A DNA stretch of 64,000 nt from Brooklawnia propionicigenes (GCF_030297015.1 NZ_AP028056.1:878939-942938), one strand, 5' to 3'. Counted from the first letter of the stretch, positions 3,114 through 22,977 are shown. Translations and numbers: made by a program. The notes: generated by a model not told the origin, from the sequence alone.

Positions 3114-3788
3114 TCATGCAGCGGGTTCATGCTGCCAGTAGCTCGGCTCTTTCTTCTTCACCCACCCGATCACATGGCCGGTGATCGGCATCAAGGCGAA
3201 CTGCACGAGGATCTTCCACAGGTAGCCGAAGAATGTATAGCTCAGCCACTGGTTGACCGTGGTGATGCCGATCACCGGGGCGGCGATCGTGCAGAACAAG
3301 ATGGTGTCGACAGCCTCCCCGGCACCGGTGGACGAGGCGAGTCGCTGGTAGAGCCGCTTCTCGGAGTGTCTCCGCTTGCCGGTCCACATGATCAGCGAAT
3401 TGGTCGTTTGCCCGCCCGCGTAGCCGACCATGCTGGCCAGCACGATCTGCCAGACCGGCCCCAGGGCCAGTTCGAGGGCCTGCTGATGGGCCGTGCCGTA
3501 GTCGTCGGTGAAGCCGGGCAGCGCAATCACGACCGCGTAGATCAGCACCGATGCGATGCTGGCGACGAAGCCGGTGATGATCGCCCGCTTCGCGGCACGC
3601 GGCCCGTAGATCTCGGTGATCATGTCGCCGAGAATGTAGGCGAGCGGGAAGAGGAAAAACGCCCCGTCCGTGATCACCGGTCCGAAGACCACACCCTTCG
3701 AGGCGCCGATGCTCGACAAGATGACGACCACCGCCATCATGGCGACCATGGTGGCGTAGTTTCCCGATCCGATGCTGGCGTATCTCAC
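3114..3788 (-). CDS. Queuosine precursor (preQ0/preQ1) transporter, YhhQ/VUT family
   Basis: 224 residues with about six hydrophobic helices. The block SKGVVFGPVITDGAFFLFP followed by LGDMITEIYGPRAAKRAI is the signature region of the YhhQ/DUF165 (ECF-like VUT) family, which imports queuosine precursors. I chose the GTG at 3788: it lies 8 bp after TAGACT (3797-3802 in minus-strand terms), matching the leaderless promoter pattern used throughout this window, and gives the usual family length. An upstream ATG at 3836 would add 16 residues and would start inside the 97-bp repeat. Its first 660 bases overlap the read-through tail of the DUF559 reading frame in another frame. Confidence 0.85.
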   Translation of the reverse strand: MRYASIGSGNYATMVAMMAVVVILSSIGASKGVVFGPVITDGAFFLFPLAYILGDMITEIYGPRAAKRAIITGFVASIASVLIYAVVIALPGFTDDYGTAHQQALELALGPVWQIVLASMVGYAGGQTTNSLIMWTGKRRHSEKRLYQRLASSTGAGEAVDTILFCTIAAPVIGITTVNQWLSYTFFGYLWKILVQFALMPITGHVIGWVKKKEPSYWQHEPAA

Positions 3789-4770
3789 GATGGGCCAGTC
3801 TAGGTGCTCGGGGCACACCGCCCCCGCGTGCCTCATCTTCTTCAGTTGACCGCTTGGATCGATCCAAATCGCCGATTTCCGGCTCATCGGCCCCAAGTGA
3901 AGAAGACCAGTCACGCCGGGAGCATGCAAGGGTCGCCCACGTCTGCTGCAGGACTGTCTCGGGCTCATTCCAGATCGTCGACGGTGTGAATCGCAGTATC
4001 CGCCAGCCGTCGGCGGTGAGCCAGTTGCTGTGCGCCCGATCCGATTCGAAACTCGCAACCTGCGTGTGGTACTTGCGTCCATCGACCTCGACGATGAGCT
4101 TGGGGACATCGAAAGCGATGTCAGGAATCACGAGGTGTCCGCACGCGATGATCTGCCGGTTGCCTACCCACCCGTCGATGCCTGCCTTGCGGTAGAGCAT
4201 CTGCAGGTTCATCTCCGGCACGGACCACGGATTGCCCGCTGCTCGCGCCAGGCATTCTCTCCGGATTCCGGGCTTCAACCGCCGCGCGACGAGGTCGCCG
4301 GCCCGGGCCAAGGACTCGGCGCTCACGGCGCCTCGCCGCAGGCCCTCGCACAAAGCCGCCCACTTCCCCATCGTTGCCATATCGAGCACGGTCAGTTCGG
4401 CCCTGGTGATGATCGCGGTACCCCAGTTCGCTCGTAGCTCCACCGGCACCTTCACCTGGTGCAGTCGCACGATCTTCGGAACGACATCCGTCTGGGGACC
4501 CGCCAGGTCGATCATGGTGTCGGGGCACTCCGGCCAGAAGGAGGCCCGAGCTGCCGCGGGGCCCATCAGAATGTGCCCGGGCCGCCAGGTGTGCGCTGCC
4601 CGGGCTCGGATCACCGGGTCGTCAACGAGATCCGCGGCAACCAGCACGCCCGGACAAAGCCGCACCAGCGTGCCTGCCGCGATAGCGCGGGTGAACTGAT
4701 TGCGTAGTGGCCGGTAATCCGCGGCAGCAATGACGCCACCGCCAGCTCTCAGGGCATCCTCGAGGTTCAT
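3127..4770 (-). CDS. AbiEi-type winged helix + DUF559 (Vsr-like nuclease fold) protein, reading frame lacking its proper stop
   Basis: The frame is 547 codons, but only the first ~285 look like protein. Residues 1-60 resemble the N-terminal helix-turn-helix of type IV AbiEi-like antitoxin proteins; residues ~170-285 form a DUF559 domain (PDIAFDVPKLIVEVDGRKYH, then WRILRFT at the end), related to very-short-patch-repair type endonucleases. Function is unknown; such genes are often multicopy in actinobacteria. After the domain the frame enters repeat copy 1. There it reads TGG at 3907-3909 where copy 2 has TGA, and so continues through the whole of the transporter gene in the wrong frame. The likely ancestral product was ~287 residues. 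The tail after 3907 is probably not selected protein. Confidence 0.5.
   Translation of the reverse strand: MNLEDALRAGGGVIAAADYRPLRNQFTRAIAAGTLVRLCPGVLVAADLVDDPVIRARAAHTWRPGHILMGPAAARASFWPECPDTMIDLAGPQTDVVPKIVRLHQVKVPVELRANWGTAIITRAELTVLDMATMGKWAALCEGLRRGAVSAESLARAGDLVARRLKPGIRRECLARAAGNPWSVPEMNLQMLYRKAGIDGWVGNRQIIACGHLVIPDIAFDVPKLIVEVDGRKYHTQVASFESDRAHSNWLTADGWRILRFTPSTIWNEPETVLQQTWATLACSRRDWSSSLGADEPEIGDLDRSKRSTEEDEARGGGVPRAPRLAHREIRQHRIGKLRHHGRHDGGGRHLVEHRRLEGCGLRTGDHGRGVFPLPARLHSRRHDHRDLRAACREAGDHHRLRRQHRIGADLRGRDCAARLHRRLRHGPSAGPRTGPGAGLADRAGQHGRLRGRANDQFADHVDRQAETLREAALPATRLVHRCRGGCRHHLVLHDRRPGDRHHHGQPVAELYILRLPVEDPRAVRLDADHRPCDRVGEEERAELLAA
3797..3802 (-). promoter_or_regulatory. Leaderless -10 hexamer of the yhhQ-like gene
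   Basis: TAGACT on the minus strand, 8 bp before the GTG at 3788. It supports the shorter start. Confidence 0.4.
3827..3923. repeat. 97-bp direct repeat, copy 1
   Basis: Gap-free match to 4837-4933 with 5 substitutions (95% identity), exactly 1010 bp apart. It holds a perfect 14-bp palindrome (TTGGATCGATCCAA) and outer inverted arms CTTCTTCA / TGAAGAAG. It lies at the 3' end of the DUF559 gene and abuts the transporter start. Confidence 0.9.
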
Positions 4771-4978: not shown

Positions 4979-6172
4979 TCACAGCTCGGTTTCCTGCGCC
5001 AGAGCAGGACGAACCACGATCCGAGTCCACGAGCCGACATAGATGCGGTCGTGGTAGCCGAGTTCGGTGCGCCGCGCGATGGGCTCGATCGGCAGCGGCT
5101 GATCGACCCGGCCGACGTAGGTTCCGTTGGACGAGCCCAAGTCCTCGACGAACCAGCGGATGCCGTCGGTCGTCAGCGCCGCCTGCTGACGGCTCACCCC
5201 GGTGTCGGTCAGGCAGTCGAGGTCGGGATGGGTCTTCCCGGAGGTCCGTCCGATCACCATTCGCGGCTTGCGCAAGCCAGTGATGATCGGCTGGCCCGGG
5301 GAAGGGAGCTGTTCGGGTGCCTGTTGCAGGCGGTACCACTCGGGATCGATCCAGATCTCCGCCACCCAGCGGGCGGGGCCGGTTTGGGTAGGCGGCACAC
5401 TACTGGACGCAGGAGCCGCCACGGGCTGGGCCGGTGGTGGTGCAGGCTGCGTGGACGCCGGGGGCTGCGGCGCCGGCGACGGCGAGGCGGCCGGCTGATA
5501 GGTGCCCTGCGGTGGCCGAGGGTCTACCGAGATCGGACGCAACGACTCGGGGCTGGGTACATCCGCGCCCGGATCCCCCAGATCGAGAGCCTCACCGATC
5601 GCCGGATCGGGGGCTTGCTGGACGGGCGCGGCAGGGGCAGCCGATTCCACCACCAGCGGGTTGTCCAGATCTGCATGGCTGGGGGCATCACCGAGATCGA
5701 AATAGCCCGGCACGGGCGGCGCGGGCGGTTCCTCGGGCTCTGCGGAAGACATCGTGTCGCCGGCCGACTCTGCGGAAGCCGCCGTGTTGCCGGCCGGCTC
5801 TGCGGAAGCCGTGTTGCCGGCCGGCTCTGCGGAAGCCGTGTTGCCGACCGGCTCCGGGGAAACCGCCGTGTTGTCGGCCGGCTCGGCGGCGGCTTGCCCG
5901 GAAGGCCGATCAAGCCCGCGCGGCAGCGCCCCCGTCAGGAAGTCATAGCCGCAGGTTTCGCAGAAGAAGGCGTCCGCGGCCGCCACCGTATGGCACACCG
6001 GGCAGGTCTGCGTCGCAGGTCTCGGCGCCGCAGCGACGCCCGGCGCCTGCGGACCCGCCTCACCAGCCGCCGGTGATGGTGGCCGAACCTCAGCCGAAGC
6101 CTCGATCCGCGCCCCGCACACCGAGCAGTAATCGTCTGTCAGGCTTTCATGACCGACAGGACAACGTGTCAT
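4979..6172 (-). CDS. FHA-domain protein with two zinc ribbons and a Pro/Ala-rich repeat linker
   Basis: 397 residues, last gene of the signalling operon. Residues ~4-21 (CPVGHE..DDYCSVCG) and ~56-74 (CPVCHT...FCETCG) are zinc ribbons. Residues ~95-140 are a degenerate tandem repeat (PAGNTASAE), and a long low-complexity linker follows. Residues ~305-385 form an FHA domain with GRTSG, SRQQA and the diagnostic DLGSSNGTYV, which binds phosphothreonine peptides. The likely role is to read phosphorylation by the PknG kinase encoded upstream in the operon; this is inferred from context. It starts 2 bp after the vWA stop. Confidence 0.9.
   Translation of the reverse strand: MTRCPVGHESLTDDYCSVCGARIEASAEVRPPSPAAGEAGPQAPGVAAAPRPATQTCPVCHTVAAADAFFCETCGYDFLTGALPRGLDRPSGQAAAEPADNTAVSPEPVGNTASAEPAGNTASAEPAGNTAASAESAGDTMSSAEPEEPPAPPVPGYFDLGDAPSHADLDNPLVVESAAPAAPVQQAPDPAIGEALDLGDPGADVPSPESLRPISVDPRPPQGTYQPAASPSPAPQPPASTQPAPPPAQPVAAPASSSVPPTQTGPARWVAEIWIDPEWYRLQQAPEQLPSPGQPIITGLRKPRMVIGRTSGKTHPDLDCLTDTGVSRQQAALTTDGIRWFVEDLGSSNGTYVGRVDQPLPIEPIARRTELGYHDRIYVGSWTRIVVRPALAQETEL
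5736..5880. repeat. In-frame 27-30 bp tandem repeat inside the FHA gene
   Basis: About five units built on GGCTCTGCGGAAGCC...TTGCCGGCC, two of them near-identical 27-mers. They encode repeats of PAGNTASAE on the minus strand. All units keep frame, so this is a linker of variable length. Confidence 0.8.
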
Positions 6173-6174
6173 CG

Positions 6175-7494
6175 CTACTCCGCCTGTCCATTCGACTGCC
6201 CGGCGTTCTCACCGTTCGACTGGCGAGTCCGCGTCGTCTTGGTGGACGAGGTGTCGAGCGCCATCTCGTCCGCTTTCTCGATCCTGCTCTTCAGCCGTAC
6301 CGTGCCGGTTCCCGGATCGACGACGTCGACGACCTTCCGCAGCTTGGTGGTCGCCTCGTGATTGCCGGTCTGCTGGGCCAGTTGCACCGCACGTCCGAGT
6401 TTGCTGGTCGCGGTCGACAGGTCCCCGGCCTTGCGCGCGGCCAGGCCCTCCTGGATCGCCGCGGCCAACTCGGTCTGGCCGGTGTAGTGGGCAACCTCGT
6501 CGTTGATCTGCGCGGTCAGCGAATCGTCGCTCGACCACATCGCCTTGACCAGGCCCTGCGTCCGGGGCTGCTCGCCGACCACCAGCTGTACCCGGGCCGC
6601 CAGCTGTTCTTGACCGACCGCCTTTGCGGGTAGCCGCACCGCGACGTGGTAGTCGCGCTCCTCATCGCCCCACGCGCCGGTCGGGAAGTCCACCGTCAGC
6701 GGGTTCACCGGCTCGCCCTGATAGGTCAGGTCCTCCACCGTCGGCGAGACCTGCCGGACGAAAAGCAGCTGGGCGCCCTGCGGCGTCCACACCCGCAGGT
6801 TCGCCGACGACACCCCGCGGCTCATCGAGGTCTGCATGATCTTGGCGAACTCGGCGGCCATCATCGACGGATCGGGAATGATGTCCAACGTGCCCATCAG
6901 GGCTCGAGCGATCTTGCGGACCTCGGAAACCACCCAGTAGGTGCCGATGCCACGGCAGTCGCACTGAAAATGCCCGACACAGGCCCGGATGGCCGCGTCC
7001 AGCTGCTCGGGCGTCTCATGCTCATCGGCACCGTCGGTCAGCAGCAGCGCGTGCCGCTGGGTGACCTTGCCGCCCATCGAGTTGAACAGTGCCAGCGTCA
7101 GGTTCAGCCAGCGCCCGATCGCGGTGCCGCCGTCGGCCACCAACCGGCTGATGGCGTCCTTGGCCTCGCGACGCGTGCGCGGGCTCATCTGCACCATGCC
7201 CGGCCCCGACTGGACGACCGGGTATGCCAGATACGCCTCATGAGTGCCCGAGACGACCGCGAAATAGGTGCCGTCCAGAATGTTGTCGAGCGCCACCATC
7301 GCTGCCTGCCGCGCGGCCAGCATGCTGCGCTGACCCATCGATCCGGAACAGTCGATGATGATGATTTCGCCCGCGCCACCGTCCGATCCGGCGCTCCCGG
7401 CATCGCTGACCCCGATCCGCACGATCGCGTTGACATCGGTGCCACCATCGGGCAGGTATTCGTTCTGGTAGACCGTGGAGTTGAACAGGGCCAC
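6175..7494 (-). CDS. vWA-domain protein (TerY-like)
   Basis: 439 residues. A von Willebrand A domain occupies about residues 40-235. It has the MIDAS motif DCSGSMG, a conserved Thr/Asp pair (TDGADEH), and a GTHEAYL strand; the C-terminal ~200 residues form a beta-rich segment followed by helical charged repeats. vWA proteins bind divalent metal and partner proteins. Next to a kinase and a PP2C phosphatase, this is the layout of the TerY-P triad described for tellurite-type stress systems. The GTG at 7494 has GAAAGGAC eight bases upstream; the frame is open further upstream but that part does not look like protein. Confidence 0.88.
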   Translation of the reverse strand: MALFNSTVYQNEYLPDGGTDVNAIVRIGVSDAGSAGSDGGAGEIIIIDCSGSMGQRSMLAARQAAMVALDNILDGTYFAVVSGTHEAYLAYPVVQSGPGMVQMSPRTRREAKDAISRLVADGGTAIGRWLNLTLALFNSMGGKVTQRHALLLTDGADEHETPEQLDAAIRACVGHFQCDCRGIGTYWVVSEVRKIARALMGTLDIIPDPSMMAAEFAKIMQTSMSRGVSSANLRVWTPQGAQLLFVRQVSPTVEDLTYQGEPVNPLTVDFPTGAWGDEERDYHVAVRLPAKAVGQEQLAARVQLVVGEQPRTQGLVKAMWSSDDSLTAQINDEVAHYTGQTELAAAIQEGLAARKAGDLSTATSKLGRAVQLAQQTGNHEATTKLRKVVDVVDPGTGTVRLKSRIEKADEMALDTSSTKTTRTRQSNGENAGQSNGQAE

Positions 7495-7540
7495 GGATCG
7501 TCCTTTCGTTGGCAGACCGGCTTGCGCACCCGCAGCCAGA

Positions 7541-8833
7541 TTAGCTTGCACCAGTCGGGGCGACCGGACGGGTGCGGGTCGTCGGAGCATCCAACTCGGC
7601 CTCTTCGCTCGCGGCCGCAGCCGACTCAGTGCCCACAGCCGAGTCAGTGCCCACAGCCGGCTCGATGCGGGCCAGGGCCACCGTGATGTTGTCCTCGCCG
7701 CCCTGCTCGTTCGCCCAGGCCACCAGGCCTTGAGCCAGGTCGAGCGGGCCCTGGGTACGCCTGGCGGCTACGGCCCGCACCAGGTGGGCGATCGCCGCCG
7801 GATCGGACGCGTAGTTCCACAGCCCATCGGAGCAGACCAGCAGCCAGCCCGCGCCGGTCGCCACGACGCCCGCCAGGGTGGGCCGCACGTCCGGGGCATC
7901 ACGGCCCAGCCAGCGGGTGATGACGTGGCTGTGCATGCCGGATTCGGCGATCCCGCGCTCGACCCCGGCCGCGATCTGTTCTTGGGCCATCGAGTCGTCG
8001 GTGCTCAGCAGCAGCGCCTCGCCCTGGTCGGGAAGCCAGTAGACCCGGGAGTCCCCCAGCGTCGCCGACAACAGTTGTGTCCCGCTCACCAAGCCGATGG
8101 CGAGTGTGCAGGACGCTGGGCTGGCCTCGTTCAGGTCGGAGTTGGCCAGCACCGCCTGATTGGCCACCTGCGCGGTCTCGTCCAGCACCATCCGGGTCGC
8201 CGACTCGGGGGCCAGATCGGTGAGGTTCCAGTCCCAGTCGGTGCGCCCGGCCAGATGGCCCAGCACCGCCCTGGCCGCGGCCAGGGACGCCCGGTCGGAA
8301 TCGGTGGACATCGACACGCCGTCGCAAACCGTCAGCACCGCCCGCACACCCGGCTCGGCACTCGCCTCGAGCGCCATGGCGTCCTCGTTGCGTGGATGCC
8401 GCAGTCCGCGGTCGCAAACCCCGGCGACCCAGGATGCCGGCCACTCCTCCAGATGATCGCGGCCACTGGGGGCTTTCGCGCCGCACTGCACGCAGTAGCC
8501 GTCCCAATCGATGGCGCCCCCGCACTTCGGGCAGCTGCGCAACTCCGGGGTGAATACCCGGCCCATGACCGCGCTCGCAGCCCGGCGCGGCCCGGCAGCC
8601 GGTGGCGGTGCGGTTTCGGCAACCGCCGCGTCCGCGGCAGCCTCGGCCGCGGCCCGGGCCGCCAGGTCGGTGTCAGGCTGCCAGTGCTGCGACTCGGTCG
8701 AGCCATAGAGCCGGCGGGGTTGGCCGGCGGGCGGCTGCGACCAGCCGTGCGGAGCCGCCGAGGCCTCCGGCGGTTGCGCCCAGCGCCCCGCCGACCCTGC
8801 AGCCTCGGGATCAGGAATGTGGTCTTCAGTCAC
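7541..8833 (-). CDS. PP2C-family serine/threonine phosphatase with zinc ribbon
   Basis: 430 residues. A low-complexity N-terminus leads to a zinc ribbon (SCPKCGG...DGYCVQCG, ~residues 101-118), then a PPM/PP2C domain with RNED, VCDGVS, GDSRVYW, SDGLWNY and GGEDNIT, covering the metal-binding aspartates. It should reverse the action of the kinase encoded immediately upstream. The GTG at 8833 is preferred over the ATG 12 bases upstream because GGAG lies six bases before it and it overlaps the kinase TGA (GTGA), giving translational coupling. Confidence 0.92.
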   Translation of the reverse strand: MTEDHIPDPEAAGSAGRWAQPPEASAAPHGWSQPPAGQPRRLYGSTESQHWQPDTDLAARAAAEAAADAAVAETAPPPAAGPRRAASAVMGRVFTPELRSCPKCGGAIDWDGYCVQCGAKAPSGRDHLEEWPASWVAGVCDRGLRHPRNEDAMALEASAEPGVRAVLTVCDGVSMSTDSDRASLAAARAVLGHLAGRTDWDWNLTDLAPESATRMVLDETAQVANQAVLANSDLNEASPASCTLAIGLVSGTQLLSATLGDSRVYWLPDQGEALLLSTDDSMAQEQIAAGVERGIAESGMHSHVITRWLGRDAPDVRPTLAGVVATGAGWLLVCSDGLWNYASDPAAIAHLVRAVAARRTQGPLDLAQGLVAWANEQGGEDNITVALARIEPAVGTDSAVGTESAAAASEEAELDAPTTRTRPVAPTGAS

Positions 8834-11319
8834 AGCAAGCTCCATCTACGGGTCGAGTCGGCTTGGGTGATGAGGCGTCGGCGTTCGTCGTCGTCGCGGG
8901 TCCAGATCGCCAGATCACGGTAGACGCGTTCGAGTTTCGGACGCAGATTGCGCTCGGTGGCCGGTTGCCCGTCGAACATGCCCACCGCCCGGCCGCGGTT
9001 GTCATGCAACTGCGCCAGCGCCTTCTCGAGCACCTCGGCCTCGAGTCTGGTGGTGGTGATCTGATCGAGTCTGGCGGCGTGGATGGCCTGCCAGGCCTGG
9101 TCCAGCTCGGCCAGCGTGCCCTCGCGCTGCAAGACCAGCTGCGCTTGGGCGGTGCGGGCGTCCGAATAGCCCCGGCTGGTCGGCGGAATGAGGCCGAGCG
9201 CATCCAGCGCGCCCTCCCGATCGTCGCGAGCCAACCGGATCCGGGTCATCGCGAACGCTGACGGGGTCACATAGGCGGCGTCGGTGCTGGCGCAGATCGC
9301 GAACAATTCCTCGGCCAGCGCGAGCTGCTCGCCGTGCTCGCAGGCCACCGCGAGGGCAAACTTGGGCGCGAGTTCACCGGGCACCTGCGCGTAGACGGTA
9401 TTGAACGGCGCCTGTGCCTCATGCCAGGCGTGGGTCTGGAAGGCGAGCAGGCCCTGCATCCAGATCGCCCGCCAATCCCACGGGTCGGACTTGAGCAGTT
9501 CGCGGACGATCCGGGAGACCGTCTGGCGATCGCCCAGCCCCAGAGCGATCTCGATCTGGGTGAGCATCACCTGCGCGGTGCGTTGCGGGGCACGTTCCAG
9601 CGCACCCATCCGCTGCCGCGGATCCTCCAGGGTGATCGACGCGATCCAGCTCGTCATCGGGTCGGCCGGGTCGGGCAGCAGCCTGGGCAGCTGCCGCCAG
9701 TCGAAACCTTCGCCGGCGGTCATCGGCGTGCTGAACAGCGTGGACGGCGCCGAGGTCGTCGCAGCGCCCGGGGAACGCCGCGCCACCACCTCGCGCAGCA
9801 CCCCCATCGCCTGAACCCGCAGGTCTTCGGCGGACTGGAAACGGTCCGCGGGCAGCGGCGCGCAAGCCCGCTGTACCAGCCGGTAGAACGAGTCGTGCTC
9901 GGCGAACAGCGGCATCTTGCTGAGCGGCGGCAACGTGTCGACGTATTCGCTCTGATAGCCGCGGAACTCCGAACTCATCACCAGCAGCGCGCGGCCGAGT
10001 GTGTAGATGTCGCTGGCCACCGACGGACCGGTCTCGGCGACCTCGGGGGCCTGGTAGCCGACCGTGCCGAAGATCGGGGACGTCTCGTCCGCGATCCGGC
10101 GCACCGCGCCCAGATCGATCAACTTGACCGAGTCGCCCACCTGCATGAGGTTGTCGGGTTTGAAATCGCAGTACAGCAGGCCGTCCTCGTGGAGGTAGGT
10201 GAATGCCGGCAGGATCTCGATCAGATAGGCGAGCGCCCAGTCGACCGGCAGCGGATCGTAGCTTCCCTTGTTGGCCGCCTTCCGCTCCTTCAACAAGTCG
10301 GTGATGGAGCGGCCCGGCACGTACTCCATGACGATGTAGCGGGCGTCGGCGTGCTGGACGAAGTTGTAGATCTCGACGATCAGTGGGTGCTCGACCGCCG
10401 CCAGGAACTCCTTCTCCGACTTCGCCGCGGCCGACGCGTCGTCGTCGGATGCGTTCAGTAGTCCCTTCAGCACCACCCAGCGATCGGAGACATTGCGGTC
10501 GCGCGCCAGATAGATCCAGCCCATCCCGCCGTAGGCGATGGCGCCGGCCACCTCGTACTGCTGAGCGATCAGCTCGCCGGGTTTGATCACCGGGTAGAAG
10601 CTGAACGCGGTGCCGCACTTCTCGCAGGTTCCGACAGCCTTACCGGGCTGACCATCATGGCCGCGCCCGACCGGAGCCCCGCACTTGGGGCAGTTCCGGC
10701 GGGCCTCCGGGACGACCGGATCCTTCAGCACGGCCTTGGCGGGATCGATGGACGGGGCGGGTGGAACCGTGGTGACGCCGGCCCCGATCCGGGTGCGGGC
10801 GCGGTGGGCGTCGGCCCGCACCGAGGTGCGGACCGCCCCCGGCCCCGCCAGGGCCGAGCCCATCAGCACGGTGCCGAGTTCTGCCGCGGTGGCGGTGGTC
10901 GACAAGGTGGTGCCGAGCAGTTTCGGCGTGGCGCTCGGTGGTTTTGCGTCCGGCGGGTTGCCGCAGACATTGCAGTAGCCGTCCACGATCGTGCCGCGGC
11001 AGCCGGGCTGGGGACACGGTCCGCCGCGCTGGCCGAGCCGGCCGCTGGAGCCGCTGGACGCCGGAGGCGGCTGCTGCGCCGGCTCATGCGCGGCCGGCTC
11101 GGCGTCGGCGGGGCCGGGTGGCTCGGTGCGGATCTGGCCGGGTTGGCTGCCGGCCGCGAACTGCCGCCGGGGGGTGTGGGAGCCGGCCGCAGGCGCCGCC
11201 GCGGACGCGGACCCGTTGACACGTGAGGGGGCAGCCGCGCCGGCAGCAGGAGGCATTCCGCAGACGTCGCAGTAACCGTCCACGATCGTCCCGGTGCAGC
11301 CGGGCTGACGGCACTTCAT
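8830..11319 (-). CDS. pknG: PknG-type serine/threonine protein kinase
   Basis: 829 residues. Two extra N-terminal zinc ribbons of the form C..PGC.GTI.DGYC.VCG sit at ~3-20 and ~102-119. A rubredoxin-like CPKCG...CEKCG unit (~210-240) precedes the kinase domain (~255-505). The kinase has YGGMGWIYLARD, VVLKG (catalytic Lys), YCDFKPDN (catalytic Asp), LIDLGAV in place of DFG as in known PknG, and GTVGYQAPE. Helical TPR-like repeats fill the C-terminus. Mycobacterial and corynebacterial PknG control 2-oxoglutarate metabolism through OdhI/GarA. The upstream gene overlaps by one base (TGATG). Unusual points are the two added zinc ribbons and the stress-type operon. Confidence 0.95.
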   Translation of the reverse strand: MKCRQPGCTGTIVDGYCDVCGMPPAAGAAAPSRVNGSASAAAPAAGSHTPRRQFAAGSQPGQIRTEPPGPADAEPAAHEPAQQPPPASSGSSGRLGQRGGPCPQPGCRGTIVDGYCNVCGNPPDAKPPSATPKLLGTTLSTTATAAELGTVLMGSALAGPGAVRTSVRADAHRARTRIGAGVTTVPPAPSIDPAKAVLKDPVVPEARRNCPKCGAPVGRGHDGQPGKAVGTCEKCGTAFSFYPVIKPGELIAQQYEVAGAIAYGGMGWIYLARDRNVSDRWVVLKGLLNASDDDASAAAKSEKEFLAAVEHPLIVEIYNFVQHADARYIVMEYVPGRSITDLLKERKAANKGSYDPLPVDWALAYLIEILPAFTYLHEDGLLYCDFKPDNLMQVGDSVKLIDLGAVRRIADETSPIFGTVGYQAPEVAETGPSVASDIYTLGRALLVMSSEFRGYQSEYVDTLPPLSKMPLFAEHDSFYRLVQRACAPLPADRFQSAEDLRVQAMGVLREVVARRSPGAATTSAPSTLFSTPMTAGEGFDWRQLPRLLPDPADPMTSWIASITLEDPRQRMGALERAPQRTAQVMLTQIEIALGLGDRQTVSRIVRELLKSDPWDWRAIWMQGLLAFQTHAWHEAQAPFNTVYAQVPGELAPKFALAVACEHGEQLALAEELFAICASTDAAYVTPSAFAMTRIRLARDDREGALDALGLIPPTSRGYSDARTAQAQLVLQREGTLAELDQAWQAIHAARLDQITTTRLEAEVLEKALAQLHDNRGRAVGMFDGQPATERNLRPKLERVYRDLAIWTRDDDERRRLITQADSTRRWSLL

Positions 11320-12482
11320 CAGTCCACCGTACCGCAGGCGCCGGGCTGACCGGCCAGCCAGCTGAGGTAATAGCGACAGGCGTCCAGCAGCGCGGTGAGG
11401 GTCTCGGTGGGCCGCGGCGAACGCTGCATCAGCTGATCGGCGACGGCGAACAGCGCACTCAGCTGTTGATCGGTCAGCTGATGCTGATCGGCCTCCGAGC
11501 GCAGCATGATCAACTCGTTCGCGAGCTTCTGCGATCCGCGCAGCGCGTCCGAATAGGCGCGAGAGACGAACTCCATCGCCTGCCCGACCTTCTCGAGCCG
11601 CGCGATGTAGGCCTCCAGCTCACCCGGATTCCCGGCCGGAACCGGGCCCAGCGCCGTGACATCGGGCACCGCATATTTGGGCGGGCTGCTGACCGTGGCG
11701 ACCACCTGGGCGACCAGCTCGTCCAACTGCTGGCTGCGGGCCAGCAGGTCGGCGCGCAACCGTTGCGCGTAGTCGGCGCGCTGGGCGGTCTGTTGCTGGG
11801 CCTGGGCATTGGCGCGGCGCTGCACGCCGCCGACGATGAGGTCGCGCTCGAACGTCGCCGCCTCGGCCTCGAGCGGACCGAGCAGCCCGCCGATGTCTCC
11901 GCCGCGCCCGGCCTTCTCATTGATCATCGTCAGACGACCTTCGAGTTGGGCCAGCCGGGCCTGGGCGGCGGCGATGGTCTGTGGCGGTTCCAGGCCGACC
12001 TGGTCGCGCAGCCGTTCCATGGTGGCCCGAAGATCACGCAGCCGGGCGACGGCCTGAGTGCCCGCCGGATCGAGTTGCAGCCGGCTGCGCAGCTGCCCGC
12101 ACAGCGCATCCGACATCCGGCAGGCCTCGGGCAACGACAGTCCGCTGGCCGCGGTGCCGCTCCAGGTGTCGTCGTCGAGACGACCCCAGACCAGCGACGA
12201 CAGTTGCTCGCGTTCCCTGATCGACACACGGCCGCGATCCCAGACCTGCAGCAGCCGGCGGTAACGCGTCTGGATCGACTGCCACAGTTGCAGGCTGAGC
12301 GCGATGTCGCGGGTGAGCTCGTCGGCGTGCTCGCTCTCCTGCACGGCGACATCGAGGGCTTCCAGTTCCGATCGGCGGGCCTCCAGCCACTTGTCGAGCG
12401 CAATCAGGTACGACCTCAACTGCAGCGGATCGACCGCCTCACCGAGGCGTCCGGGCGCATCGGGCGCGTTGACGGGACTCAT
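11319..12482 (-). CDS. Coiled-coil protein of the PknG operon, unknown function
   Basis: 387 residues, almost wholly helical and charged, with no signal peptide, membrane segment or cysteine clusters. Residues ~30-90 and ~150-270 look like coiled coils (many L/A/E/R/Q heptads, QAQQQTAQR). I do not recognise a named family. It starts in a 4-bp ATGA overlap with the membrane protein upstream and ends one base into pknG. Such tight coupling suggests it links the membrane protein to the kinase, but that is only inference. Confidence 0.75.
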   Translation of the reverse strand: MSPVNAPDAPGRLGEAVDPLQLRSYLIALDKWLEARRSELEALDVAVQESEHADELTRDIALSLQLWQSIQTRYRRLLQVWDRGRVSIREREQLSSLVWGRLDDDTWSGTAASGLSLPEACRMSDALCGQLRSRLQLDPAGTQAVARLRDLRATMERLRDQVGLEPPQTIAAAQARLAQLEGRLTMINEKAGRGGDIGGLLGPLEAEAATFERDLIVGGVQRRANAQAQQQTAQRADYAQRLRADLLARSQQLDELVAQVVATVSSPPKYAVPDVTALGPVPAGNPGELEAYIARLEKVGQAMEFVSRAYSDALRGSQKLANELIMLRSEADQHQLTDQQLSALFAVADQLMQRSPRPTETLTALLDACRYYLSWLAGQPGACGTVD

Positions 12483-13753
12483 CGGTACCTCCGCAGTGAT
12501 CCGCTCAGGCCGACGGCCGAACTCACGGCCGCGAAGACCATGATCCCGGCGACCAGCACGGCCAGGTTCTCGACCGTCTCGGCGTGCCCGGACAGGTCTG
12601 CGTCCACCTCTTGGCCGATGCTCGACGATTGCTCGGTGAGCCAGTCGATCAACCAGTCATAGGGAGCCTGGGCCGAGGCGACCAACTCGGAGCTGGGCGG
12701 CTCGGGCGCGGCCATCAGCTGCTCATGGGTGGAGATCATCTGGGTCAGCTGGTCGGCGGCCTGGCTGTCGCCCAACACGCTGAGTGCCTGGTCGGCCCGG
12801 CCGGTGGCATCGGAGTAGGTCTGGGCCCCGCTCGCCGGATCCGTGATGCCCAGCAGGATGCGTCCCTCGGCCGCCTTGGCCTCGGTGACGGCGCCGTACG
12901 CCTGGGCGACCGCGGTTGCCCGGCTGACTCCGCTGGTCTGCACCGCGCTGATGCTCGCGGCGCTGGTGGTGACGAGCTGCGTGACGATCACACCCGATGC
13001 CACCGCGCCCGCAAACGCAAGCACCAGGCCCAGGTTGAAGACGCGCCGGGTGCGCCTGGCAATCACGATACTTGCTGCCGCCAGCAGCAGCAGCGGAACG
13101 GCCAACAAGGCGATCAGCCACTGCTGGTTGCCGCCCGAGGATTCCAGGATCGAGGTCTGCTGGGCGATCTGTGCGTCCAGCAGCGGCAGCACATCGTCGG
13201 CCAGCTGTTGACTGGCCACCAGCATGTCCGGCTGGCCGCCGGTGTGCATCGCGACAGCCAGTTGAGCGACATAGCGACTCATCGCCGTGTTGATGTCCTG
13301 GAGGGACGCCGAGTCGGCGGGACTGGCGGCGGCAGCGGCTATCAGCTCCGCGGCGGCAGAATCGACGAGACCGAGATAACCGGCGTTCGGGCTCTGCCCG
13401 TCGGTGGTCATCAGCAGCGCCTGGGTGGACGCCGCCTCGGCGCCGAGCAGATCGCTGCGGACCGTCTCCAGCCTCAGCATCTGCTGGGTGGCCGCATTGA
13501 CCCGTTCCACCGACTGCCGGTTCTGATCGAGCATCAGCGGCGTGATCACGGCGGCTGCCAGGCACACGATCACCAGGACGACGCGCCACCACGCGATCAC
13601 CGAGGACGTGGGCATGTTCGTGCCGCTCTTGGCTGGAGCCGGTGCCTGCTGAGTCGGGCTCAGTTGCGCGCCGCGGCGGGCTTTCGGGGCCGCCGGGGCT
13701 GCGAAGCCGGTGGTGCCCGGGCGGTTCCACGCGGACGCCGGGGAGTTCGTCAT
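12479..13753 (-). CDS. Four-TM membrane protein with extracytoplasmic helical domains, GlnX-like
   Basis: 424 residues. Transmembrane helices are visible near 55-75 (VLVIVCLAAAVITPLML), ~205-225 (WLIALLAVPLLLLAAA), ~235-255 and ~395-415. The two segments between pairs of helices are Ala/Gln-rich and helical, like four-helix-bundle sensor domains. In mycobacteria and corynebacteria PknG is encoded with a membrane protein, GlnX, and the binding protein GlnH, which pass amino-acid signals to PknG. This protein has the right position and topology to play the GlnX part, but no GlnH is present. The start at 13753 has GGAGG upstream and overlaps the AAA+ stop as ATGA. Confidence 0.75.
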   Translation of the reverse strand: MTNSPASAWNRPGTTGFAAPAAPKARRGAQLSPTQQAPAPAKSGTNMPTSSVIAWWRVVLVIVCLAAAVITPLMLDQNRQSVERVNAATQQMLRLETVRSDLLGAEAASTQALLMTTDGQSPNAGYLGLVDSAAAELIAAAAASPADSASLQDINTAMSRYVAQLAVAMHTGGQPDMLVASQQLADDVLPLLDAQIAQQTSILESSGGNQQWLIALLAVPLLLLAAASIVIARRTRRVFNLGLVLAFAGAVASGVIVTQLVTTSAASISAVQTSGVSRATAVAQAYGAVTEAKAAEGRILLGITDPASGAQTYSDATGRADQALSVLGDSQAADQLTQMISTHEQLMAAPEPPSSELVASAQAPYDWLIDWLTEQSSSIGQEVDADLSGHAETVENLAVLVAGIMVFAAVSSAVGLSGSLRRYR

Positions 13754-15420
13754 TCGGTCTCCTCCCCCGTCAGGTCGCGCTGATCGGTCTCGGGCTGGAC
13801 GATCAGTTCGTCGCCCGGCGCCATGACACCGTCTCCGACAACATCCTCGCGCGTCAGCAGTCGAAGCTGCTCCACGGTGGGCTGGGGAATGTCGCGCAAC
13901 CGCCATGCCTGATGACCGATCGCGGCCTCCAGCACATTGCGGCAGTACCGTCCGTTGCCGAACGTCTCATTGCGAACCTGCTGCGACAGGTCGAAGGTGA
14001 AGGCGTCCAGCGCGCCATCGGCCAGATCGTAGTCGGACTTGTCGACCATCTGCACGAAGATCTCGATCAGTTCGTCGTCGGTATAGTTCGCGAACCTGAT
14101 CTCGGTTCGGAAACGACTTGCCAGGCCGGGGTTCTCGGCAATGAAGGTGGCCATCGGGCCGGGATATCCGGCCACGATCACGACCAGGTCGTTGCGGTTG
14201 TCCTCCATCTCCTTGACCAAGGTGTTGATCGATTCCTCGCCGTACTGGTCGCCCGACAGTGCGTAGGCCTCGTCGATGAACAGCACCCCGCCCAGCGCGG
14301 AGGCGACCACGTCCGCGGTCTTGGTGGCGGTCTGCCCGAGGTAGCCGGCCACCAGTTCGGAACGGTCGACTTCGACCAGCTGCCCCTTGCTGAGCAGTCC
14401 GACCGCCTTGTAGATGCCGGCCACCAGCCGGGCTACCGTCGTCTTGCCGGTGCCCGGGTTGCCGACGAAGACCAAGTGCCGGGTGATGGTGGGAACCTTC
14501 AAACCGGCTTCAGCGCGCAACGCCTGCACGTGCAGTATCGCCGCCTGCCGTTTGATCTCGGCCTTGACTTCCTTGAGCCCGATCAGTTCATCGAGTTCGG
14601 CGATCAGTTCGTCGACGGTGCGTTCGGGTTCGGCGGGTGTCTCGACGACCGGCTGCGGCCCGGCCGGCAGCGTGGGATCAGGTGCGGTCGCTTCCGGACG
14701 ACCGTCTGCTGTTCGGGTTTGCGGGTCGGCGCCGGGCAGCCCGCCCGGTGCCGGCAAGCCCGGGATGCCCGCCGGCGCAGGACCGACGCCGGGGCCCTGG
14801 TCCAGCAACGGTGACGTCCGCATCTGTTCGATCCTGGCCTGGTTGACCCGCATCTGCTCCAGCACTGATTCGAAGGCCTGATTACCGACCCGGGTGAACT
14901 CGTCCATCGCCTTGAGCCGGTCCTGCGAGGTCTGCAGTTTGGCGAGCAGATCGGGATTGAGGCCGCCACCGGCGGCAGCCGGCGTCGCATCCAGCGAATC
15001 GAGGGTCACGGGCAGGCTGCCGCCGGGCAGCGCCCGTTGCTGGGCGGCGGAGGCCGACGCGGCCAGACCGGCCACCTGAGGGGTCGGCTGACCGAGTGTG
15101 CAGGCGACGGCGATGACCGAGCCGAGCGCAGCAAGGTACTGCTGGGCGGCGGCGACCGAGGTGTTACCCAGTTGGCTCATCAGTGGGGTGGGGCCGGCGC
15201 GCCAGCGGCGCCCTCTCGATGCGGCCGCGAAGAACTCCTGGGAGTCGGGTTCTCGTCCGAGTTCAGTAGCCCAATCCAGGTAGGCGCCCACCGAGGGCTC
15301 GCAGACCGCAGCAGCCAACTGTTCGCCTTCGGCCAGGGCCTGCTCGGGGTCCAAGCCTGCGGTCTCGGCGACTGCGACCAACTGATCAAGGGCACTGCGC
15401 AGCGTCTTGCTCGTCATCAT
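13750..15420 (-). CDS. CbxX/CfxQ-type AAA+ ATPase
   Basis: 556 residues. The N-terminal ~270 residues are helical and end in a Pro/Gly-rich linker. The AAA+ domain begins near LDELIGLKEVKAEIKR. It has Walker A GNPGTGKTT (~320), Walker B GVLFIDEAYAL, and the sensor/arginine region ENPGLASRFRTEIRF, the pattern of CbbX rubisco activases and EccA-type ATPases. It probably remodels a protein complex; the substrate is unknown. Two adjacent ATGs (15420 and 15417) are possible, with GGAG just upstream. The 279 bases up to the next gene hold no convincing gene. Confidence 0.88.
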   Translation of the reverse strand: MMTSKTLRSALDQLVAVAETAGLDPEQALAEGEQLAAAVCEPSVGAYLDWATELGREPDSQEFFAAASRGRRWRAGPTPLMSQLGNTSVAAAQQYLAALGSVIAVACTLGQPTPQVAGLAASASAAQQRALPGGSLPVTLDSLDATPAAAGGGLNPDLLAKLQTSQDRLKAMDEFTRVGNQAFESVLEQMRVNQARIEQMRTSPLLDQGPGVGPAPAGIPGLPAPGGLPGADPQTRTADGRPEATAPDPTLPAGPQPVVETPAEPERTVDELIAELDELIGLKEVKAEIKRQAAILHVQALRAEAGLKVPTITRHLVFVGNPGTGKTTVARLVAGIYKAVGLLSKGQLVEVDRSELVAGYLGQTATKTADVVASALGGVLFIDEAYALSGDQYGEESINTLVKEMEDNRNDLVVIVAGYPGPMATFIAENPGLASRFRTEIRFANYTDDELIEIFVQMVDKSDYDLADGALDAFTFDLSQQVRNETFGNGRYCRNVLEAAIGHQAWRLRDIPQPTVEQLRLLTREDVVGDGVMAPGDELIVQPETDQRDLTGEETE

Positions 15421-15699
15421 CGCTCCATCGAAGTTCCAGCAGCTCAGCGCGTAGCCTCGCGGTGTCATTCAACCTAGCAGCACCGTGGCAAGGCGCCACC
15501 GAGATAGCAGGCCGAGATCATCGGTCAAGCGCTCTGGCTCGGCGCCATCGGTGCTGTTGGTGCCGGGCCGATGCTCTCGCGGGCTATGAACGTCGAGTGC
15601 CGTACGACCGGGGCCACGTCTCGATCCGACACATGCAGGATGCGTCCGATCAGCTTTTGTCCGCCGCGATGCGGCCCATTTCTTCGCGGGGCATGAAGA

Positions 15700-16233
15700 T
15701 CACAAATCCAGCGGGTTGGTCGACGGCTGGGTCGGCGCATCCAGCCGGGCCGGCCTCATTCGTCCACCGAACTTCGAATCGAGGAAGGCGCCTTGAGCCA
15801 CCAGCGCGGCCGCGTCCATCCGGTTCGTGGCGTCATACATCCGCGAGATGGTCAGGCTGAGCAGATCGAGCTGGTCGACCAGCAGCAGCAGCGACGACTT
15901 CCCGTTGGCGACCGGACGAGTGTCCGCCCAGTCCCGCGGCAGCGCAAGATAGCCGGCCACCGATTCGGGAAGATAGTCGGTGGCCGTCGCGACGACCGTG
16001 TAGGCGTCCTGGGAATCAAGACCCAGATTGCCCAGCCGGGGCACAATCGCGCGCACCACGGTGATGATGCGCAGCACTCGCGCGAGCACCGGGGTGGGCG
16101 CATGCCCCTCTATCGCCATCCGTTCCGCCTTGACCAGCGCCGCCTCGATGTCCTGAGAGGTCGGGGCCGGCGAGGCCAGCGTTTCGGGGTCGGCAGGTTT
16201 CTGTTCCCCCCGAAGCCAGCCGAAGATTCCCAT
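15700..16233 (-). CDS. Small helical protein between TelA and AAA+ genes, unknown function
   Basis: 177 residues, no membrane segment, no cysteines. The central region has regularly spaced Leu/Val residues (VLRIITVVRAIVPRLGNL, LLLLVDQLDLLSLTISRMYD) suggesting a helical bundle. It starts 25 bp after telA with GAAAGAAG upstream. I cannot place it in a family. Its position between telA and the ATPase suggests it belongs to the TelA-associated part of the operon, like the XpaC-type partners of TelA elsewhere, though similarity to XpaC is not evident by eye. Confidence 0.7.
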   Translation of the reverse strand: MGIFGWLRGEQKPADPETLASPAPTSQDIEAALVKAERMAIEGHAPTPVLARVLRIITVVRAIVPRLGNLGLDSQDAYTVVATATDYLPESVAGYLALPRDWADTRPVANGKSSLLLLVDQLDLLSLTISRMYDATNRMDAAALVAQGAFLDSKFGGRMRPARLDAPTQPSTNPLDL

Positions 16234-16258
16234 CGTTGCTTCTTTCAGGTCGAGCAGC

Positions 16259-17533
16259 TCAGCCCAGGTTGTAGTCGGGCACCGACAGCGAGTTGGTGAT
16301 GGCCGCCCGGTCCTCCGACTGGCGGGCCCGTTCCAGATAGGCGCGCGACTTGGAGACCTCGGTCTCCAGCGTCCCGATCGTCTGGCTCATGGTGTTGAGC
16401 GCCTCGATCTTGAAGCTGTCGATCGAATCCATCGTCTGGTAGATGTTCGCGAACGCCTTCTGCAGCGACTCAATGGAGATCGTCGAGCTGGCCGCCTGCT
16501 GCTGGATGGTGACCGAGTTCGACTTGAGCATCTCGCTGGTCCGTTCGATCAGCCCCGAGGTGGTGGCATTCAGCGCGGTGATCTGGTCGAGCACCAGCTT
16601 CTGGTTGCCGAGTGCCTGCGCGGTGATGACGGCGGTGCGCAACGCGGAGACGGTCGTCGTGGACGCCCGGTCGACGCCCTTGATCAGCTCCATGTTGTTC
16701 TTGATGATCACGTCGATGGCCAGGTACCCCTGGATCGACACCGCCAACTGGGTGAGCAGATCCTGGTGCTTCTGGCGGACGTAGAAGAGCACGTCCTTGT
16801 TGAGGGCGTCCGCCTTCATCGGGTCGGTGACCTGCAATTCGGCGATGGACGCCGACAGTTGGGTGTCGAGCCGCTCGGCCAGGTAGATGTACTGGTTGAG
16901 CCGGTTCATGGTGTCCCACAGCTGCTGCTTTTCCATGTTGAGGCTGACATTGTCCTTGGTCAGCTCATCCTGGCCGGAGCGCAACGCATGCAGAATCGCA
17001 TTCAGGTGCTGCTGGCTGGACTGGTACTTGCGGAAGTAATCCTGGATCTTGTCGCCGAACGGGATCACGCCGAGGAACTTCTTCTGCTTGCTCACCTCCG
17101 ACGGGTCCAGGCCCTCCACCGTCTTGCGGAGCTCGATCAACGTGGCGGAGACCTTGGAGACGTCGCTGAGCCCGCCGGTCTTCATCTCGTTGATCGGTGT
17201 GTCGAGCAGCCGGTTGCTCATCTCGGCGGCACGCCGGATGTCGGCGTCACCCATGCTGCGCACGGCGTCGGCCTGGGCACTGAACTCGGGGCTGCTGGCC
17301 TGCTCCGCCATGATCGCACCCATGAACTGGTTGACCTTGGCATCCAGCACGGGACGCTGCTCGGCGGTCACCGGCGGGGCCATCTGCGGGGCCTGGGTGG
17401 CCTGCACCACTGGCGGCGGCGCCGGAGCTTCGAGCGTCAGCGCGGCTGCCGATGGGGGCGGTGACAGAGGCTGTACCGCTGCATGCTGGTTCTGCGGTGC
17501 TGGGCCCTGCGGATACGCCGGGGTCTGGCTCAT
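16259..17533 (-). CDS. TelA-family toxic-anion-resistance protein
   Basis: 424 residues; the first ~65 are a Pro/Ala/Gln-rich tail, the rest a long helical domain. Family marks include GVIPFGDKIQDYFRKYQSSQ, LNAILHALRSGQDEL, the YIYLAERLD block, and the C-terminal IYQTMDSIDSFKIEALNTM. TelA proteins are linked to tellurite and antimicrobial-peptide resistance, but their mechanism is unknown. It is the first gene of the minus-strand operon and has a clear GGAGAGGA ribosome site, so this gene is not leaderless. Confidence 0.92.
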   Translation of the reverse strand: MSQTPAYPQGPAPQNQHAAVQPLSPPPSAAALTLEAPAPPPVVQATQAPQMAPPVTAEQRPVLDAKVNQFMGAIMAEQASSPEFSAQADAVRSMGDADIRRAAEMSNRLLDTPINEMKTGGLSDVSKVSATLIELRKTVEGLDPSEVSKQKKFLGVIPFGDKIQDYFRKYQSSQQHLNAILHALRSGQDELTKDNVSLNMEKQQLWDTMNRLNQYIYLAERLDTQLSASIAELQVTDPMKADALNKDVLFYVRQKHQDLLTQLAVSIQGYLAIDVIIKNNMELIKGVDRASTTTVSALRTAVITAQALGNQKLVLDQITALNATTSGLIERTSEMLKSNSVTIQQQAASSTISIESLQKAFANIYQTMDSIDSFKIEALNTMSQTIGTLETEVSKSRAYLERARQSEDRAAITNSLSVPDYNLG

Positions 17534-17593: not shown

Positions 17594-18658
17594 TCAGTCG
17601 ATCGGGTAACCCTCGACCGGGCCTTTGGTGGCCGGGATCCAGCCGAGTGCAGGGGCCACGTACTCGGCGAAGTTGCGCAGAATCGCCAGATTCGGCTCGA
17701 CTCCCAGCGTGTTCGGGATGGTCAGCATCAAGGTATCGGCTGCCTCGATCGCCGGGTCGGCCTTCAGCTGCTCGATCAACACATCGGGTTCGGCGGCGTA
17801 GCTGCGTCCGAAGGTGGCATTGCCGCCATCGAGATAACCGACCTCATCCGACGAGGTGGCCTGCAGTCCGAAGAGCTGCCGGTCGCGGTCACTGACCAGC
17901 GGGAAAATCGATCGGGAAACCGAAACGCGGGGCGTCCAGTCGTGGCCGGCCTGTTTCCACGCGGCGCGATAGCGGGCGATCTGGTCGGCCTGCAATTCAC
18001 CCAGTGACGACCCATCCGACTCCGAGACCAGGGTCGAACTCATCAGATTGACACCGTCACGGGCTGCCTGTTCGGCGGTCTTCCTGGTGCCCGAGCCCCA
18101 CCAGATGCGCTTGCGCAAGCCCGGCGACTGCGGGAAGACCGGCAGTGCGATGCCCGGCTGATACATCCGGGGGTACTGCTCGTCCAACGCGGCGGCGCGG
18201 GCAACACCCCGGCCCTCGACCGCCGCCAGCAAGATCTCGAACTTGCTGCGCGCCATATCGGCACCGTTGGGCGCCTCCGATTGATATCCGAACGCTTTCC
18301 AGCCCTGCTCCGCCGGTTCGGGAGATCCTCTCGAGACGCCGAGTGCGACGCGGCCATTGGCGAGCAGATCCAGCGCCGCAGCCTCTTCGGCCAGGTAGAG
18401 CGGATTCTCGTAGCGCAGATCAATGACCCCGGTGCCCACCTCGATGTGTTTGGTCACCGCGGCGATCGCACCAAGCAGCGGCATCGGCGAAGCACCCTGA
18501 GGGGCGAAGTGATGGACGCGGAAGTAGGCACCATTGACACCGAACTCGTCGGCGAACCGGGCCAGTTCGAGCGCTTGACGCAACACGGTGCGAGCGTCGG
18601 GCCCTTGCTGACCGGGAATTGCGTAGTGGCCGAAACTGAGGAATCCAAAGGCCTTCAT
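17594..18658 (-). CDS. LLM-class flavin-dependent monooxygenase/oxidoreductase
   Basis: 354 residues of luciferase-like TIM barrel: N-terminal MKAFGFLSFGHY, FRVHHFAPQGASPMPLLGAIA (the HHF active region), IEVGTGVIDLRYENPLYLAEEAAALD, NGRVALGVSRGSPE, and WWGSGTRKTAEQAARDGVNL. It should use FMNH2 or F420 to oxidise a small molecule; the substrate is not evident. The ATG at 18658 follows TATGCT by 6 bp, matching the leaderless pattern; 70 further upstream codons in the same frame look non-coding. Confidence 0.88.
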   Translation of the reverse strand: MKAFGFLSFGHYAIPGQQGPDARTVLRQALELARFADEFGVNGAYFRVHHFAPQGASPMPLLGAIAAVTKHIEVGTGVIDLRYENPLYLAEEAAALDLLANGRVALGVSRGSPEPAEQGWKAFGYQSEAPNGADMARSKFEILLAAVEGRGVARAAALDEQYPRMYQPGIALPVFPQSPGLRKRIWWGSGTRKTAEQAARDGVNLMSSTLVSESDGSSLGELQADQIARYRAAWKQAGHDWTPRVSVSRSIFPLVSDRDRQLFGLQATSSDEVGYLDGGNATFGRSYAAEPDVLIEQLKADPAIEAADTLMLTIPNTLGVEPNLAILRNFAEYVAPALGWIPATKGPVEGYPID

Positions 18659-18664
18659 GTTTGC

Positions 18665-18670
18665 AGCATA
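18665..18670 (-). promoter_or_regulatory. Leaderless -10 hexamer of the LLM oxidoreductase
   Basis: TATGCT on the minus strand, 6 bp before the ATG at 18658. Confidence 0.5.
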
Positions 18671-18833
18671 GAAGTGCGCGCCAATGCGCGAGGGCCGCTG
18701 ATGGCAACCGGGCAGCCCGTGAGCACAAGATATTGTGGTCTCCGGCGTAAACTGGCCGATGCGCGGTGTGGCCGGACCCCCGATGGGTTCGGCTTTTTCA
18801 TGTGCCGCCGGTCGTGCACCATTCAGGAGCCCC

Positions 18834-22456: not shown

Positions 22457-22903
22457 GTGCGTGTCCTACTGCAACGAGCGAGTTCGGCAAGAGTCCTGGT
22501 GGACGGTCAGGTGACCGGCGAGTTGACCCGTCCGGGTCTGCTGGCCCTGGTCGGCATCACCCACGACGACAACGAGCAGATCGCGAACAAGATGGCCGAC
22601 AAGACCTGGCAGTTGCGCATCCTCGCCGACGAACAGTCGGCCAGCGATCTGAACGCCCCGATTCTCGTGGTCAGCCAGTTCACGCTCTACGCCAACACCC
22701 GCAAGGGTAGGCGCCCGTCGTGGAACCGTGCGGCTCCCGGCCCGGTCAGCGAACCCCTCGTCGACGCCTACTGCGCCGCGCTACGTGCCTGCGGCGCCGA
22801 AGTTGCCACCGGCATCTTCGGTGCTTATATGAGGGTAGAACTTGTCAATGAAGGTCCAGTAACGATCCTGCTCGACTCGGCGGATTGGGGATCGGTATCC
22901 TAA
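22457..22903 (+). CDS. dtd: D-aminoacyl-tRNA deacylase
   Basis: 148 residues, the standard length. It removes D-amino acids (and glycine from tRNA-Ala) from mischarged tRNAs. Characteristic motifs are VLLQRAS.A.V..DGQVTG at the N-terminus, the [17 protein letters not shown] region, and a C-terminal [15 protein letters not shown] block (the variant Gly-cis-Pro region usually reads MxVxxxNDGPVT). The GTG start is leaderless. Confidence 0.95.
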
Positions 22904-22977
22904 GAGGAGTTTCAGAGATCTCGTGGTCGGACGGGTCGCCACGGAATCTCCCGGGCAAGCAGAGGGAGAGGATTCGC

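Follow-up and report, generated by a model that had tools for sequence, protein, structure and literature searches.

A conserved gene set that places TelA beside the PknG kinase and GlnX and that lacks GlnH in Brooklawnia propionicigenes

Actinobacteria use PknG as a major kinase of metabolism, and this kinase has been linked to the virulence of Mycobacterium tuberculosis. In mycobacteria and corynebacteria, a functional link joins PknG to the membrane protein GlnX, and GlnH is an Asp/Glu-binding protein; the documented stimulus of PknG-GlnX is periplasmic Asp/Glu (PMC6069109, PMC9769921). According to the published model, GlnH signals via GlnX to the TPR domain of PknG (PMC6069109, PMC8546545), although the contacts among GlnH, GlnX and TPR have no direct demonstration (PMC9769921). 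Another described system for comparison is the TerY-P triad, which is linked to tellurite systems and whose kinases carry a C-terminal zinc ribbon or an OB-fold (PMC11090510). Here, we analysed a stretch of 64,000 nucleotides from Brooklawnia propionicigenes (GCF_030297015.1 NZ_AP028056.1:878939-942938), referred to as the window, in which positions 4979-17533 hold nine minus-strand genes. These encode TelA, a small helical protein (SML), a CbxX-type ATPase, GlnX, a long-helix protein (CC), PknG, a PP2C phosphatase, a vWA protein and an FHA protein (Table 1). The set is conserved and collinear at other loci, most of which carry an additional glnH gene that is missing in the window.

A conserved gene set around PknG

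All nine open reading frames (ORFs) are present, and Pfam and NCBIfam matches bear out the domains that a preliminary description of this DNA had named. For 60 places with PknG, the surrounding DNA (up to 20 kb each) was searched with profiles of the nine window proteins, and SML as query against public genomes yielded 80 named loci (Propionibacteriaceae, Nocardioidaceae, Intrasporangiaceae, Cellulomonas and others). The two collections overlap, so that about ten organisms are counted twice in the total of 89 loci. These span Propionibacteriales, Intrasporangiaceae and Cellulomonadaceae and share the order TelA, SML, CbxX-type ATPase, GlnX, GlnH (where present), CC, PknG, PP2C, vWA and FHA; exceptions among the loci of the SML scan are truncated contigs, nested ORFs and a few rearranged cases. 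In the PknG-anchored stretches, families of the same order keep the full set in collinear form, and so does one genome from a different family (L105). That is, the neighbourhood search proposed in the preliminary description finds the set widespread rather than restricted to this genome. Since GlnH is encoded between GlnX and CC at 66 of the 89 loci, the common form comprises ten genes; the nine-gene set described before is real, but it is one gene short of the form found elsewhere. In the open-access literature, a scope outside which most subscription journals fall, we found no account of the unit as a whole, in line with the preliminary description.

TelA and PknG also occur together. Among 57 relatives, 33 carry both a strong TelA and PknG, two carry TelA alone, none carries PknG alone and 22 carry neither (Fisher p=8e-14, not corrected for kinship). 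A distant TelA is present in three of these 22 genomes, and TelA lies outside the PknG cluster in G294, which belongs to the 33. In a class-wide draw, the presence of TelA and PknG in Nocardioides-type genomes was all-or-none.

The kinase of the window is, as judged from its sequence, a true PknG. It combines the rubredoxin (PF16919), kinase (PF00069) and TPR (PF16918) domains in one protein and is the sole PknG in the genome of 3.21 Mb; its alignment to the M. tuberculosis enzyme (2pzi) spans both kinase and TPR, at E=3e-119. Its catalytic motifs VVLKG, YCDFKPDN and IDLG are kept at 83-88 of the 89 loci. The neighbouring proteins are likewise intact: the metal-site motifs NED, SDG and DN are found in 86 of 86 PP2C proteins, the MIDAS motif in 82 of 82 vWA proteins and the FHA core motifs in 29-30 of the 30 high-scoring FHA copies. 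Zinc-ribbon-like [DE]GYCxxC motifs occur in PknG (88 of 89 loci) and PP2C (62 of 86), and the FHA protein has related but different ribbons; these motifs may serve as docking parts. A GarA/OdhI ortholog with the sequence SETTRV is encoded elsewhere in the genome, adjoining what we take to be gcvH and a MerR-type gene, and by analogy it would be a substrate of PknG. Within the operon, an ETT-like site is found in few proteins and a GarA-like ETT motif is not conserved.

Compared with the PknG-GlnX-GlnH-GarA/OdhI pathway of mycobacteria and corynebacteria (PMC6069109, PMC9769921, PMC8546545), the window shares a PknG with kinase and TPR domains, the adjacent four-transmembrane (four-TM) GlnX and the GarA/OdhI ortholog, and also the rubredoxin domain, which is absent in corynebacteria. 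It adds CC, PP2C, vWA, FHA, the CbxX-type ATPase, SML and TelA, and in its lineage GlnH has been lost and the periplasmic parts of GlnX have diverged. Mycobacteria-like genomes carry GlnX-GlnH-PknG only. A related arrangement, PknG-PP2C-vWA-FHA with GlnX, is found in Streptomyces-like genomes (f4), in two further families (f80, f81) and, beyond the class, in a single genome. These clusters often encode a CC-like protein and often GlnH, but they contain no TelA, SML or CbxX-type ATPase; TelA, if there is any, is encoded elsewhere. As such TelA-less clusters exist, we read the window locus as a PknG core to which TelA, SML and the ATPase have been added.

The likeness to TerY-P is limited to the adjacent genes for kinase, PP2C and vWA (PMC11090510). 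The preliminary description had proposed that PknG replaces the kinase of such a triad. For a stress or anti-phage triad of this kind, the presence of TelA and the tie of TerY-P to tellurite systems (PMC11090510) would speak. However, kinase architecture and genomic context differ: the window kinase carries TPR at its C terminus and has neither the zinc ribbon nor the OB-fold of the triad kinases, and its context is GlnX/GlnH. In PADLOC, no model was matched by vWA, PP2C or TelA, and PknG and the AAA protein matched general kinase and AAA models only. We therefore abandoned the reading as a defence system and consider a TerY-P-type triad highly improbable.

We favour, with modest confidence, the view that the locus encodes an enlarged PknG-GlnX complex, the input of which has changed in the window lineage and for which TelA, SML and the ATPase are proposed as a second output. 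In this view, all interactions and substrates are inferred, as is the part of TelA and the ATPase as an output.

GlnX with and without GlnH

The four-TM protein is a divergent GlnX by its profile match and its conserved position, as had been suggested before. It matches NCBIfam NF058618 with E=2e-22 and 79.7 bits (75.6 bits in the genome search), which does not reach the curated cut-off of 250, and it is the only GlnX match in the genome. Hydrophobic stretches read from the sequence (residues 58-75, 212-232, 241-260 and 397-416) predict four putative TM segments, two periplasmic domains and a cytoplasmic loop with the motif RRTRRVFN.

GlnH is absent from the window and from 22 other loci. On the PknG tree, the GlnH-less state requires two changes, and losses are the simplest reading because the outer groups have GlnH. 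The best GlnH match in the window genome belongs, as the binding protein, to an ABC operon for glutamate that is complete, so that no dedicated GlnH was found in this genome. We compared GlnX identity between GlnH-bearing and GlnH-less loci at matched PknG divergence. Identity over the whole protein falls from 0.36 with GlnH to 0.21 without it, and the periplasmic segments fall from 0.45 to 0.20 and from 0.30 to 0.16, with smaller drops in TM1, TM2 and TM4. The cytoplasmic loop around RRTRRVFN is retained (0.49 with and 0.58 without GlnH). No comparable drop is seen in CC, TelA, SML, the ATPase or vWA, and the one in PP2C is slight (0.49 to 0.43). This pattern fits a GlnX whose relaxed periplasmic side no longer meets GlnH and whose cytoplasmic side is still in use. 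The natural loss of GlnH offers a way to tell GlnH-contacting from PknG-contacting parts of GlnX.

What the altered GlnX might sense bears on a further reading, put forward in the preliminary description, namely that the locus encodes an envelope-stress complex. In such a complex, damage to the envelope would be sensed by the membrane protein, and PknG, PP2C and FHA would drive TelA and the ATPase as a protective output. TelA belongs to a toxic-anion/tellurite resistance family and in Listeria influences how well cells withstand nisin and further antibiotics that act on the wall; moreover, a GlnX without its amino-acid partner could take another input. Yet the unit contains neither an envelope-damage sensor nor an envelope-modifying enzyme, and GlnH beside GlnX in most members points to nutrients as the ancestral input. 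We regard an envelope-stress function as unlikely.

TelA, SML and the seam

The TelA domain is full-length, covering positions 2-332 of the 332 positions of PF05816 with 320 bits, and the operon TelA proteins form one supported clade with two non-operon members nested inside. One of these loci (L147, G139) has TelA directly followed by a CbxX-type ATPase and no PknG side, and is probably a remnant of the larger unit. SML is almost confined to genomes with TelA (37 of the 38 genomes with SML). Two loci with a foreign label, one from Spirochaetia (L165) and one from a metagenome-assembled genome of Pleomorphomonas (L166), encode an SML identical to that of the window at residues 66-177 and are most likely misbinned contigs. 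A Foldseek search with the SML model gave no match at E <= 0.001, and SML and its distant homologs did not match the Pfam family of XpaC, a conceivable relative, at E up to 5, where weak matches were mostly filtered out. A designed protein superposed on SML by VIA-align (Z 13.2, root-mean-square deviation (rmsd) 6.7, 141 residues aligned) was dismissed as sharing a common helical arrangement. For CC, with a conserved motif around GRGGDxGGLLGPLE...FERDLIVG, the Foldseek search with the model likewise gave no match at E <= 0.001, and EzrA from VIA-align (Z 10.5, rmsd 24, 339 residues aligned) was set aside for the same reason. The ATPase contains PF00004 and PF17866 with Walker A and B motifs intact in 87 of 87 proteins; it is not SpoVK, EccA or CbbX proper, as its scores lie under all three equivalog cut-offs.

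Neighbouring genes of the set mostly overlap or nearly touch. The preliminary description had given overlaps of 1-4 bp or short gaps throughout, which holds for most junctions but not for PknG/PP2C, overlapping by 16 bp, nor for SML and the ATPase, where the gap is at least 231 bp up to the first ATG and about 280 bp up to the likely start at 15420. At this seam, sister species carry other genes: nar (nitrate reductase) genes at one locus (L162) and a MacB-like ABC transporter at another (L078/L168) within the genus of the window; L077 has another ABC transporter upstream of the ATPase, at the SML-ATPase junction. The proposed coupled operon is upheld as a conserved collinear unit, the seam of which takes up other genes in sister species. 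Gap and insertions suggest that TelA-SML is separable, and it might be transcribed separately. Scans for sigma-70 promoters and terminators gave matches at chance level only.

The strongest rival concerns two neighbouring units, a stress module of TelA and SML next to a PknG-GlnX module, joined by inheritance only. It draws on the seam with its insertions and on TelA-SML loci without PknG in other families; these share a TelA with a small helical partner nearby, but they have no PknG side, and one of them (L142) encodes TerD beside SML. On the other hand, both modules are present together or both absent across the patchy genomes of the order, the gene order is retained over several families and the operon TelA is essentially one clade. 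On balance, we consider mere neighbourhood possible but improbable.

Returning to the enlarged PknG-GlnX complex, GlnX would anchor PknG at the membrane by a contact between the cytoplasmic loop or the ends of GlnX and the TPR domain of PknG. PknG would phosphorylate FHA-type partners, that is the GarA/OdhI ortholog and possibly proteins of the operon itself, the PP2C would undo this phosphorylation and the FHA protein would read phospho-threonines inside the complex. CC could act as scaffold, the CbxX-type ATPase and the vWA protein could remodel the assembly, and TelA with SML would form a second, non-metabolic output. The input in most lineages would be periplasmic Asp/Glu through GlnH; in the window lineage, after loss of GlnH, GlnX would receive another input or act as a constitutive anchor. 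The conserved ten-gene set suggests which proteins may serve as dedicated phosphatase, as scaffold, as reader and as remodelling ATPase, and it places TelA, which is widespread but has no known mechanism, beside a defined signalling pathway. A more specific version, which we put forward only tentatively, holds that loss of GlnH led to a different input read directly by the fast-evolving GlnX and that TelA, SML and the ATPase are a phospho-controlled output complex; if true, TelA would gain a role in a defined signalling pathway.

Several observations weigh against the enlarged complex. The window GlnX scores far under the curated cut-off of its family, and the small number of operon proteins with an ETT-like site means that no GarA-type substrate is evident inside the operon. 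The ATPase is dispensable in Propionimicrobium lymphophilum (L095/L169), where it is absent and SML is followed directly by GlnX. Finally, the SML-ATPase seam takes insertions in sister species, and TelA and SML may work alone, given their occurrence without PknG in other families and the two non-operon lineages inside the operon clade.

Coordinates and flanking genes

Two starts deserve comment. GlnX most likely begins at 13753, where its ATG overlaps the CbxX gene as ATGA, rather than at 13906 as in the ORF of 475 amino acids, and the vWA start is uncertain between the two positions given in Table 1.

Table 1. Features of the PknG-TelA locus in the window (positions counted from the first nucleotide; pLDDT, predicted local distance difference test)
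Feature	Position	Strand	Basis
TelA, toxic anion resistance family, 424 amino acids	16259..17533	(-)	Pfam TelA 320 bits; operon TelA one supported clade
SML, 177 amino acids, all-helical, TelA partner	15700..16233	(-)	No Pfam/NCBIfam match; model mean pLDDT 79
Seam between the TelA-SML pair and the next seven genes	15421..15699	(-)	Insertion point in sister species
CbxX/SpoVK-type AAA+ ATPase, N-terminal extension of ~280 amino acids	13750..15468	(-)	AAA and AAA_lid_6; likely start ~15420
GlnX-type four-TM protein	12479..13753	(-)	NCBIfam GlnX 79.7 bits; position across 89 loci
CC, cytoplasmic long-helix protein, 387 amino acids, likely scaffold	11319..12482	(-)	No Pfam family; model mean pLDDT 92.7, all helical
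PknG kinase: two N-terminal DGYCxxC motifs, rubredoxin, kinase, TPR	8830..11319	(-)	Pfam PknG_rubred, Pkinase, PknG_TPR
PP2C phosphatase, N-terminal zinc-ribbon-like motif	7541..8845	(-)	PP2C_2; metal-site motifs
vWA protein with VWA_3_C domain	6175..7494 (start 7494 or 7590)	(-)	Pfam VWA_3 and VWA_3_C; MIDAS
FHA protein: N-terminal zinc ribbons, long linker, C-terminal FHA	4979..6172	(-)	Pfam FHA, residues 306-380

Other loci seldom carry the genes that adjoin the set in the window, which makes TelA and FHA the borders of the set. Upstream, a luciferase-like monooxygenase gene (17594-18868) lies 60 bp from TelA on the same strand; it was rejected as a member, since homologs are found at only four or five loci. 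Downstream of FHA, the ORF at 3127-4770 encodes a DUF559/MTES_1575 nuclease-like domain and is not conserved at other loci. A gene for a GlnR-type nitrogen regulator is located on the plus strand at 22885-23646, about 5 kb upstream of the operon.

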